21,716 nucleotides of DNA from a virus. The translations under genes were made by a program, and so were the position numbers. Below the pieces are notes generated by a model. It was not told the DNA's origin, searched no databases, and saw only the letters and a program-made list of their open reading frames with translations. Positions 3,115-5,528 of the stretch are shown piece after piece (position 1 is the first letter of the stretch; each line of letters starts with the position of its first letter). Location of the stretch: positions 1-21,716 of the IMG/VR virus record IMGVR_UViG_3300030329_002797; one strand, written 5' to 3'.

Positions 3115-3515
3115 AAGATGCACCCACCATATGCGACAAATGCCACAGTACATTTATCAAATCTGTCGATGAGGCAGAATTTCGATGCACCATCTGTGGC
3201 TGGCGTTTTTATACCCCGCTCGGAAGGATTGAGAAAAGGCCGTTTAGATTGCAGGTTCGCTACAAAGGGTCTGCCGTCAAAGGAAAGAGAACACCACTTA
3301 CAATCGGCATTGCCGACAACGATAACGAGCCGAACAGAGTCATGAAATACCAGGTCTATTGCCCCGAGTGTTTGCAGATGACAAAGCAGGGGCCAAGAAA
3401 AAAGAGGGATAACAACAATGGGTTTTATTACGAGATCGGGATGAAGTGCAAGAACCACCATATTACAACGCTCATGGAATCGAGTCATACAGGAGAATTA
3501 TTCGGATGGCGCTAA
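3111..3515 (+). CDS. Zinc-ribbon protein
   Basis: The product is 134 aa. The start is GTG overlapping the previous stop (GTGA), indicating translational coupling to the ATPase. Two Cys pairs near the N-terminus (CDKCHS, then CTICGW about 17 residues later) make a zinc ribbon. A second CPEC and a later CxNHH form a possible second metal site. The middle is basic (KGKRTPL, GPRKKRDNNN). Basic zinc-ribbon proteins in phage replication clusters usually bind nucleic acid. I cannot name the family. Its end overlaps the start of the resolvase gene by 10 bases. Confidence 0.65.
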   Translation: MKDAPTICDKCHSTFIKSVDEAEFRCTICGWRFYTPLGRIEKRPFRLQVRYKGSAVKGKRTPLTIGIADNDNEPNRVMKYQVYCPECLQMTKQGPRKKRDNNNGFYYEIGMKCKNHHITTLMESSHTGELFGWR

Positions 3516-3868
3516 GAATTGAATATCCATACATGCCACCAAAAGAACTGCGGGGAAATTCCAGTACACGATGGCAACAGAAGAGCGGGGTAAAGAATCA
3601 GTTTCAGGACGCAACTATATTTCGTTTAAGAGAACAGAATCCTGAGCCAATGGAGAAGGTGAACGTCAAATATATTGCCTACTGGTGCGGCCAGAAGATC
3701 GATCCTGACAATTTGATTATCGGAATGAAGTACGCCCTTGATTGTCTAACTATCGAAGGGATTATCAAGGATGACAATTCCGATTTTATTCAAAGCATTA
3801 CAGCCGAGTACCATAGGGTACCGCATAAAGATCAGATCAAATTAGTAATGGAAGTGACGGAGAATTAA
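3506..3868 (+). CDS. rusA: RusA-family Holliday-junction resolvase
   Basis: The product is 120 aa from ATG 3506, the same length as E. coli RusA. This start is chosen over an in-frame upstream GTG because AGGAG lies 10 bases before it. The hallmark acidic core is present: KIDPDNLIIGMKYALD at about 64-79, with Asp66 and Asp68 in the DxDN context, and IIKDDNSDF with the final Asp pair at 89-90. These correspond to the catalytic aspartates Asp70, Asp72 and Asp91 of E. coli RusA. The enzyme acts as a dimer cutting four-way junctions in phage recombination or before packaging. It follows the zinc-ribbon gene with a 10-base overlap and abuts the methyltransferase locus, whose SD lies inside its last codons. 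Confidence 0.88.
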   Translation: MALRIEYPYMPPKELRGNSSTRWQQKSGVKNQFQDATIFRLREQNPEPMEKVNVKYIAYWCGQKIDPDNLIIGMKYALDCLTIEGIIKDDNSDFIQSITAEYHRVPHKDQIKLVMEVTEN

Positions 3869-3873
3869 ATGTG
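3859..3873 (+). promoter_or_regulatory. One ribosome site serving two overlapping starts
   Basis: GGAG at 3859-3862 precedes ATGTG at 3869-3873. ATG 3869 (6-base spacing) opens the WPTP-repeat frame, and GTG 3871 (8-base spacing) opens the methyltransferase frame. Both spacings are within the normal range. The stop of the resolvase gene is immediately before the ATG. Confidence 0.6.
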
Positions 3874-5293
3874 GCTACACGTACCTACAACACTATTAGC
3901 ATCTGTTCCGGATACGGCGGAATCGAACTTGGACTCAGAGAAGTTATCCCTGTTAGAACAGTCTGCTATGTGGAAATCGAAGTCAGCGTCGCAGCAGTCC
4001 TGGCAGCGCGTATGGAAGAGGGATACCTCGATCAGGCGCCTATCTGGACTAACCTCAAAACATTCGACACTGAGCCGTGGCGTGGAAAAGTTGACATCCT
4101 CACTGGCGGCTTCCCTTGCCAGCCCTTCTCAGTCGCAGGGGCGCAGCTCGGAGAAGATGACCCAAGAAACCTCTGGCCAGATACAGCCAGACTTATACGG
4201 GGGCTTAGGCCACCAGTTGTCTTTCTCGAAAATGTTCCCGGAATCCTTGAGTATTACTTCAGTACAATCCGACCCGAACTACGAGAGATGGGTTACGAGG
4301 TTACGGAAGGACTATTCTCAGCGTCAGAGACAGGCGCACCCCACAAACGCCAGCGAATCTTCATTCTGGCCTACGGCTCGGGCATCTGATAATGAAGGGG
4401 GAATACCCTCTAATGTTGAACTATCAGAAGGTTCATTCAGCAGGACAAATGCTGATGGTGTCAGATGGGGTGTGAAGTTAAAAGATGCTACAGCCCATTG
4501 GCCTACCATGACTGCCGGTAATCCATCAAACGCAAACTCAAAGAGGAGATCTGATTCGATATACGGTGCAGTGGAGAAATGGCCGACACCTTTAGCTTCC
4601 GATGAAAATTATAGAGTCCCAAGTGAAAACTGGAACGGCACAGATCTCCCTTCAGTCGTGAGCAACTGGCCGACCCCCACTGCATCAGAAAAGTCAGGAA
4701 CGAACCCGAATACAGGCAAAGGTGAGGGACTTAACAAGACAGCCAAACATTGGCCAACACCCAAAGCAGGAAACCCCGGAAGCAGAAAGCCTGGAACAGG
4801 GGGCAAGGTATTAAACGAGGAGGCAAAGAAATGGCCTACCCCGAATGTTTCTGACAATAACGATCCTAACTTGAAAGATAACCATGACCTTGAAAAAGGA
4901 TATTTGAGAGGAGTAGCTACAACATGGCAGACACCACAGGCAAGAGATTACAAGGGGCCGAACACAGGGTTTCAGGAGATGCTACCCAACCAAGCTCTGA
5001 ACTGGGGAACACCGACATCGAGGGACTGGAAGGACGGGACATCGGCAGGGACAGTAGAGGAGAACGGCCTGCTAGGGAGACAAGCCCCGAATATGTACCA
5101 CTCTATCCTCCCGGACCCGGAGACAGAGACGGATGGGCATACCTGCTCTCCATCGTGCCGGAGGCTGAACCCACTTTTTGCAGAACACTTAATGGGACTA
5201 CCTCTGGGGTGGACCTGCGTCTCAGGGCCGTTGGAAACGGAGTCGTTCCAGCGGTGGCAGCTCGCGCTTTCCGCGTACTTAGCGAGAAATTAA
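3869..5293 (+). CDS. WPTP-repeat protein overprinting the methyltransferase (474 aa)
   Basis: This frame is open for 474 codons and overlaps both methyltransferase fragments in the +1 frame. The N-terminal 165 residues are Ser/Gln/Arg-rich and overlap the catalytic domain. From 4367 come about eight WPTPxASD-like repeats spaced 26-31 residues apart, the first gap being longer. The tail, RLNPLFAEHLMGLPLGWT, resembles motif IX of C5 methyltransferases. From memory, phage proteins with the same WPTP/LPTP repeats and an LNPxFxExLMGxPxGW tail are annotated beside or fused to C5 methyltransferases. In M.EcoHK31I a second polypeptide encoded in an alternative frame supplies motif IX. This product is therefore a candidate target-recognition subunit. 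Alternatively only the part after about 4370 is translated, by frameshift from the catalytic frame. The central 500 bases are open only in this frame on this strand, which argues that it is real. Confidence 0.6.
   Translation: MWLHVPTTLLASVPDTAESNLDSEKLSLLEQSAMWKSKSASQQSWQRVWKRDTSIRRLSGLTSKHSTLSRGVEKLTSSLAASLASPSQSQGRSSEKMTQETSGQIQPDLYGGLGHQLSFSKMFPESLSITSVQSDPNYERWVTRLRKDYSQRQRQAHPTNASESSFWPTARASDNEGGIPSNVELSEGSFSRTNADGVRWGVKLKDATAHWPTMTAGNPSNANSKRRSDSIYGAVEKWPTPLASDENYRVPSENWNGTDLPSVVSNWPTPTASEKSGTNPNTGKGEGLNKTAKHWPTPKAGNPGSRKPGTGGKVLNEEAKKWPTPNVSDNNDPNLKDNHDLEKGYLRGVATTWQTPQARDYKGPNTGFQEMLPNQALNWGTPTSRDWKDGTSAGTVEENGLLGRQAPNMYHSILPDPETETDGHTCSPSCRRLNPLFAEHLMGLPLGWTCVSGPLETESFQRWQLALSAYLARN
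3871..4389 (+). CDS. C5-cytosine DNA methyltransferase, catalytic part (motifs I-VIII)
   Basis: The product is 172 aa from GTG 3871. It contains the AdoMet-binding motif I (SICSGYGGIELGL, 10-22), motif IV with the catalytic Cys (GGFPCQPFSVAG, Cys83), motif VI (FLENVPG, Glu120-Asn121-Val122) and motif VIII (KRQRIFILAYG, about 159-168). It then stops at TGA 4387, followed by many further stops in this frame. The usual target-recognition region and motifs IX and X are missing from this polypeptide. C5 methyltransferases normally run over 300 aa. A motif X piece reopens in the same frame at 4924, and motif IX-like sequence is encoded in the overlapping frame. It may be one chain of a split enzyme, a frameshifted gene, or a decaying gene. 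Likely roles are self-protection from host restriction or orphan methylation. Confidence 0.78.
   Translation: MATRTYNTISICSGYGGIELGLREVIPVRTVCYVEIEVSVAAVLAARMEEGYLDQAPIWTNLKTFDTEPWRGKVDILTGGFPCQPFSVAGAQLGEDDPRNLWPDTARLIRGLRPPVVFLENVPGILEYYFSTIRPELREMGYEVTEGLFSASETGAPHKRQRIFILAYGSGI
4367..5040 (+). repeat. WPTP repeat array, period about 84 bases
   Basis: Degenerate TGGCCNACNCC-like units begin at 4367, 4499, 4580, 4667, 4751, 4832, 4925 and 5003. Spacings are 132, 81, 87, 84, 81, 93 and 78 bases, all multiples of three. Each unit reads W[PQG]T[PAM]xA[SGR][DEN] in one frame. In the catalytic methyltransferase frame the same bases read LAY, MADT, LADP, LANT, MAY, MADT or LGNT. That matches the FILAY segment that ends motif VIII and begins the first unit. 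Confidence 0.7.
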
Positions 5294-5322
5294 AAAAACA
5301 GGGGAACTTTCCGAAGCTATGA
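4924..5322 (+). CDS. C5-methyltransferase C-terminal fragment (motif X)
   Basis: The product is 132 aa in the same frame as the catalytic fragment but separated from it by about 500 bases with many stops. It begins MADTTGKRLQGAEHR, the kind of text that follows motif VIII in many phage C5 methyltransferases, and continues PPGPGDRDGWAYLL. It carries motif X at about 103-114 (AVGNGVVPAVAA). GAGGAG sits about 10 bases before the ATG, and its stop overlaps the next start as ATGA. Both support independent translation rather than a dead remnant. No motif IX is visible in this frame. It may complement the upstream catalytic polypeptide in trans. The alternative is a degenerate gene whose end is kept open by the overlapping frame. 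Confidence 0.55.
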   Translation: MADTTGKRLQGAEHRVSGDATQPSSELGNTDIEGLEGRDIGRDSRGERPARETSPEYVPLYPPGPGDRDGWAYLLSIVPEAEPTFCRTLNGTTSGVDLRLRAVGNGVVPAVAARAFRVLSEKLKKQGNFPKL

Positions 5323-5528
5323 CAGATAAATGCTTGCATCACTACATCCTGGAACCACCCAACGGAGCCAACTGTCTCGGGGTCTGTAAGAAATGCGGTG
5401 CGACAAAGATTCACTCAAATGAACTCGGCAAAAAAGTTGTCGCAAGAGAGACAAGACGGGGCTTCGTCCAAAAGGTCGTGGAATTTTCGTTGAATAATAA
5501 GGGAACACTAAAAGAAAAGAATGATTAG
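5319..5528 (+). CDS. Small zinc-finger-like phage protein (69 aa)
   Basis: The product begins MTDKCLHHYILEPPNGANCL and has VCKKCGATK. The HHxxxEPPNG...GVCKxCGA pattern is, from memory, shared by many short phage proteins of unknown function. The Cys and His residues are arranged as a likely single zinc site. It starts in an ATGA overlap with the motif X fragment and overlaps the next gene by 8 bases, so it belongs to the same message. A DNA-binding or protein-contact role is inferred only. Confidence 0.7.
   Translation: MTDKCLHHYILEPPNGANCLGVCKKCGATKIHSNELGKKVVARETRRGFVQKVVEFSLNNKGTLKEKND

Follow-up and report, generated by a model that had tools for sequence, protein, structure and literature searches.

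A phage C5-cytosine methyltransferase locus that probably encodes one enzyme in three separately translated chains

What does a DNA methyltransferase gene make when its reading frame is closed part of the way along while a second frame runs open across the gap? The locus that raises this question lies in a virus fragment of 21.7 kb (the window, meaning the whole stretch of DNA analysed, to which coordinates refer unless a relative is named), where three overlapping open frames are found between an upstream RusA-like resolvase gene (3446-3868) and a small ORF. All three frames are on the + strand: alphaN (3871-4389), the catalytic piece of a C5-cytosine methyltransferase; beta (3869-5293), an overlapping subunit of 474 aa in the +1 frame, with an array of eight W-x-T-x modules, or cassettes, at 4367-5080; and alphaC (4924-5322), a separately started piece in the same frame as alphaN (frame A). 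Sequence comparison shows that three frames are conserved, that there are two start sites, that the alpha frame is lost between alphaN and alphaC, and that the last piece codes in two frames. We consider it likely that the product is a single orphan phage C5-cytosine DNA methyltransferase, built from three chains that are translated separately. The original prediction had described an enzyme like M.EcoHK31I with its alpha frame broken in two, and the same layout in eight further contigs of two lineages now supports this at the sequence level. The small ORF (5319-5528), which contains Cys and His residues, lies directly 3' of alphaC, and its start region is found again in L004 and L011, there too behind the methyltransferase.

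Searched separately, alphaN (GTG start, 172 aa) matches PF00145 (E=1e-36) and phrog_363 (5e-48), with PDB matches of the M.HhaI type, and beta matches phrog_1008 (1.5e-26). Motifs I (CSGYGG, at 3904), IV (GGFPCQPFS, 4105-4131), VI (ENV, 4228-4236) and VIII (HKRQRIFI, 4342-4365) of alphaN lie where the original prediction had read them, and the PCQ, ENV, QRxRxF and AdoMet motif I signatures of C5 enzymes (PF00145) are all present and invariant in the alphaN alignment. From 4387 to about 4893 frame A is closed, reopening with motif X in 4924-5322, again as predicted. The window has no second PF00145 match elsewhere, and no sigma-70 promoter or terminator was found between the pieces on the + strand within the gene. 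The intact alpha of a two-piece relative, L011, is predicted at pLDDT 82 with the fold of the M.HhaI large domain (Foldseek E=1e-12).

The first two chains appear to start together. A single GGAG (3859-3862), the putative Shine-Dalgarno (SD) site common to beta and alphaN, precedes the sequence ATGTG (3869-3873), in which the ATG of beta (3869) overlaps the GTG of alphaN (3871). A dual start with a shared upstream site is kept in relatives, as ATGTG in the window, L001-L006, L010, L011 and L019 and as GTGTG or GTGAATG in other families. In 134 of 150 loci a beta start fell within 8 nt of an alpha start, against 44 of 150 for the third frame as control, counts that are approximate since the choice of start codon was automatic.

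Relatives were collected by scanning IMG/VR and GTDB contigs, mostly by alpha patterns and therefore without bias toward an open beta. Among 259 loci classified (some of them duplicates), 201 have alpha in one piece and a beta that covers a similar span, the M.EcoHK31I layout; since some 200 loci with intact alpha carry it, the beta subunit, and with it the two-piece alpha/beta layout, is widespread among the sampled loci. No relative paired an intact alpha with random +1 stops except the monomeric L223, L224 and L289, which have motif IX in their own frame and no long +1 frame, and about two others, L245 and L251. These last encode large alpha-like C5-methyltransferases in which motif X is present; neither a long +1 frame nor a match to the motif IX pattern was found in them. 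In Phage C75C1 (L133, OQ984151.1) and Mycobacterium phage Zerg (L135, NC_051720.1) alpha alone is annotated, and in both the overlapping beta frame is open with a motif-IX-like end.

Three-piece loci form two clades, the first comprising the window, L001/L002, L003, L004, L005/L006 and L010, the second L071, L218 and L219. In all of them alphaN ends soon after motif VIII, its stop falling within a few codons, beta is open, and motif X lies where frame A opens again. Because loci of one clade are related, the nine do not count as independent observations; the three-piece trait needs three changes on the alphaN tree, at least two of them on starred branches, which indicates that the split of alpha into two cistrons arose at least twice independently. 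No third three-piece lineage appeared in 80 more loci. L146 and L220 were left uncounted as three-piece loci, alpha being partly broken in each and the rest being without a good start.

Other rearrangements occur in the family. L011 (2993-3774), two-piece and with a single cassette, is nested among the first three-piece clade, so that a return to two pieces by cassette loss is possible. In L059, L061, L065 and L173 it is beta's frame that carries motif X, following motif IX, and alpha has motifs I-VIII only, an AquI-like layout that, on this comparison, arose inside the overlapping alpha/beta family. L082, L140 and L178 were rejected as AquI-like, motif X being shifted in them because of an HNH-like ORF inserted between motifs IX and X (L082, 1286-1588; L178, 3699-3917; L140, 3891-4307). 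The L082 and L178 inserts are in the third frame and match Pfam HNH (E=0.0021 and 1e-4); in L140 the insertion is of a similar zinc-finger/HNH-like kind, with weak zinc-finger matches only. With such inserts a single gene region holds as many as three or four coding layers, for which the ShiLan element offers a comparison.

Is alphaC itself a gene? Frame A is open from 4894, and alphaC runs from an ATG at 4924 to a stop at 5322 (132 aa, with RAVGNGVVPAVAARAF as motif X), behind a putative SD site of its own, GAGAGGAG (4906-4913). Stops were compared with an expectation in which beta was held fixed and its synonymous codons resampled, a procedure that keeps amino acids and not all constraints. 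At 4387-4893 of the window, where frame A is relaxed and beta is the sole coding frame, 18-19 frame-A stops were observed against 17.6-18.3 expected, and the stretches between the pieces of all nine loci have 113 against 111.4, the neutral rate; inside alphaC the nine loci have none against 21.1 expected. (The 102 intact loci also have none, against 349, partly by selection, since they were chosen for an open alpha.) The first ATG past the last frame-A stop has an SD match of at least 5 nt in 9/9 three-piece loci, and by beta-synonymous resampling an ORF of this length with such an SD site would arise by chance with a probability between <0.001 and 0.013 per locus. Of the 183 cassette junctions of intact loci, one has an ATG with an SD match of at least 5 nt. 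At the other junctions of split loci, ATG is found in 6/30 and ATG with an SD match of at least 4 nt in 4/30, so cassette ends provide such sites fairly often; some internal cassettes of split loci have ATG and SD without an open frame.

Two further observations concern the codons themselves. The beta codon preceding the tryptophan at the alphaC start differs within the first clade (ACA, AAA, AAA, AGA, TCA, TTA), and its last base is always A, so that the ATG is preserved. Counts of differences by codon position are A1:A2:A3 = 306:121:387 in the alphaC overlap (L011 included) and B1:B2:B3 = 138:108:258 in the middle region, where beta alone is coding; they indicate selection on both frames in the third piece and on beta only in the middle. 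All four tests (stops, ATG with SD, the final A and the codon-position differences) agree that alphaC is a gene.

These results bear first on decay, in which mutations have disrupted alpha and alphaC survives as a leftover that its overlap with beta happens to keep open. The alpha-frame stops of the middle are exactly neutral, as decay would have it, and, given beta, alphaC would be open by chance with a probability of about 0.09 in the window taken by itself. We nevertheless hold decay to be unlikely: nine contigs of two lineages are in the same state, alphaC substitutions fall mainly at A3 and its stops are missing from the pooled loci, an ATG with SD stands at every reopening, and the catalytic motifs are intact in every alphaN of the three-piece loci. 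It is also quite unlikely, in our judgement, that alphaN and beta suffice as a two-chain enzyme with alphaC dispensable or in another role. The requirement for alphaC in activity is here a sequence-based reading, which leaves room for such an enzyme, but motif X (LRAVGNGVVPAVAARAF) and the YPPGP segment of alphaC are conserved in relatives, in frame A except for a few that have them in another frame, and alphaC is under purifying selection. In solved C5 enzymes motif X packs beside motif I.

A single polypeptide could in principle be made by programmed frameshifting, +1 from alphaN into beta after motif VIII and back to frame A before motif X. The order of parts (I-VIII, variable region, IX, X) is that of a monomeric enzyme, and the position of the alphaN stop, so near motif VIII, would suit the first shift. 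This account needs two shifts in opposite directions, however; alphaN ends vary in length and sequence with no common slippery site seen, beta has a conserved start of its own at that of alpha, and alphaC has its own start and SD. We think it improbable.

The +1 frame of the window is open for 474 codons and closes, as the original prediction had it, with a motif-IX-like segment, RRLNPLFAEHLMGLPLGWT (5159-5215). Across the first survey, of about 90 loci, alpha holds 75 stops in its +1 frame against 481 expected by synonymous reshuffling of alpha, and some of the 75 may lie beyond the end of beta, which often stops short of alpha's end; the +2 control frame of the same loci has 1538 against 1527. 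The window by itself has no +1 stops in alphaN (2.4 expected, P=0.017) or alphaC (3.0 expected, P=0.012), which is weaker evidence, so the weight of the open frame rests on relatives. Over alphaN, alpha dominates the substitutions and amino-acid-level constraint on beta is weak for much of the way (A3 share 0.50); change at A3 is depressed in codons 43-72 and 123-152, which argues that beta is constrained there. An AlphaFold2 model of beta alone (pLDDT 58, low confidence being expected if beta folds on alpha) has helices at 42-58, 68-81 and 138-157, in or beside the constrained segments.

In an alignment, 44 beta C-termini share LNPx[FW]VEWLMGxPxGW. The beta profile, compared with monomeric enzymes by hhalign, gave its sole match at their motif IX, ungapped (PRRLTPRECERLQGFPDDWT, E=0.014), with a probability of 3% that is low because the segment is short; a PDB sequence search with the beta C-terminus gave just a spurious WW-domain match. 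Joined, motif IX of beta and motif X of alphaC align in the expected order with positions 273-321 of PF00145 (E=0.34), and the joined chain scores 134.6 bits against PF00145 with beta and 126.7 without. Beyond the variable region, motif X is clear in alphaC, and motif IX is recognised in beta by its short motif only.

Overlapping genes are known in phage methylases, and some loci of this family carry an HNH insertion; beta might accordingly be a selfish or unrelated overlapping gene, like the out-of-frame HNH insertions in phage methylases (ShiLan, PMC11855218). We find this very hard to credit, as beta matches nothing in Pfam, HNH or other, spans the whole gene, has a motif-IX-like end, and is found in about 200 loci whose alpha lacks motif IX but is missing where alpha has that motif. 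That faulty sequencing or assembly split an intact alpha, a possibility raised in the original prediction for 4387-4923 and conceivable in a metagenomic contig, is excluded in practice, since nine contigs in two lineages share the layout, eight of the nine having 8-28 alpha stops in the middle (L219 has 3) with beta open throughout, and independent contigs differ in cassette content.

The variable region of beta is a row of modules of 25-50 residues starting W-P-T-P; those of the window begin at 4367, 4499, 4580, 4667, 4751, 4832, 4925 and 5003. Module types recur reordered and in distant phages (identities of 92% for window_1/L010_1, 71% for window_3/L023_5, 65% for window_5/L219_0 and 59% for L001_2/L071_0), a pattern that looks like recombination of interchangeable units. 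The overlapping subunit had been thought to be enlarged by repeats. Enlarged it is, and the repeats prove to be diverged, exchangeable protein cassettes, not a DNA tandem array; expansion of beta by DNA tandem repeats was rejected, with just one 37-bp match. In intact loci the variable region is beta-dominated (B1:B2:B3 = 295:198:773, DNA-seeded matches). Because beta's frame shapes its evolution even in loci with an intact alpha, target recognition is probably in beta, which corrects the first reading: beta would be the target-specificity subunit besides the source of motif IX. That beta is the protein that matters there, with alpha carried along, would account for alpha's tolerance of a break in the variable region. 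Multispecific Bacillus phage enzymes carry target-recognition domains in tandem, and by analogy each cassette may read a DNA target.

The mechanism we propose is as follows. AlphaN, from its GTG at 3871, would provide AdoMet binding and catalytic motifs I-VIII; beta, started at the ATG at 3869 from alphaN's ribosome site and read in the +1 frame, would provide motif IX and the modular variable region, probably the reader of the DNA target; alphaC, from the ATG at 4924 and its own ribosome site, would provide motif X. We infer that the three chains assemble, methylate DNA and shield the phage from restriction. The ancestor would have been a two-chain alpha/beta enzyme of the M.EcoHK31I type. 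Because its variable region is constrained in beta's frame, gain of cassettes by recombination would tolerate alpha stops, and the alpha C-terminus would have been rescued where the A-TGG junction at a cassette start offered an ATG and the purine-rich end of the cassette before it an SD site. More generally, and with slightly more doubt than belief, we suggest that most phage C5-methyltransferases without a recognisable motif IX might be obligate complexes with a hidden overlapping beta, that beta might be a recombining array of specificity cassettes, and that cassettes incompatible with alpha might repeatedly have given three cistrons, so that overprinting led to enzyme splitting.

The three-chain enzyme, if real, would be a natural case of overprinting fragmenting an enzyme and would supply ready-made components for methyltransferases that are split and can be targeted. 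From the survey, annotation seems to miss a necessary subunit in a large class of phage methyltransferases, which could account for failures in cloning alpha alone, and specificity may sit in swappable beta cassettes.

Comparison with known systems begins with M.EcoHK31I (target YGGCCR), whose beta, of about 176 aa, is read from an alternative frame inside the gene, and M.AquI (target CYCGRG). These two are the natural two-chain C5 enzymes named in the literature that was found (PMC3404938); a literature search of incomplete coverage found no three-chain C5-methyltransferase. In M.EcoHK31I the alpha chain has motifs I-VIII and X and the second polypeptide alone gives motif IX (PMC3404938), in agreement with what the original prediction had said of it. 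The present locus likewise has a predicted second polypeptide, with a motif-IX-like segment, in the +1 frame inside the gene; the layout of M.EcoHK31I is that of L011 and about 200 loci. It resembles M.EcoHK31I and, as its sequence reads, lacks one defining feature, the single alpha chain: motifs I-VIII and X are on one chain in L011, whereas here frame A is closed at 4387-4893 and alpha is two cistrons, in the window and eight relatives, with a beta of 360-506 aa that carries cassettes. The TRD of M.EcoHK31I was predicted in alpha (PMC3404938), with which a variable region evolving in beta's frame disagrees.

M.AquI is divided in nature within the variable region, past motif VIII (PMC3404938), as is this locus; its second chain, however, has both IX and X, whereas here the putative IX is in frame B and X in frame A, and it is L059, L061, L065 and L173 that stand nearer to it. 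The C5-methyltransferases of Bacillus phages SPR, phi3T and H2 have several tandem target-recognition domains (PMC8936443) on single chains; here the blocks lie in a separate overlapping subunit and would read DNA by analogy. ShiLan also has an overlapping frame in a phage methylase gene, an out-of-frame HNH insertion (PMC11855218), but what was inserted there is a homing endonuclease, whereas beta is read as part of the methyltransferase; true HNH insertions are those of L082 and L178. PHROG 363 (alpha) and 1008 (beta) are both 'DNA methyltransferase' families, listed apart. Set against these systems, the comparisons made here indicate as new a catalytic subunit split into two cistrons, with at least two origins, and a variable region that evolves in beta's frame, its repeats being shuffled cassettes.
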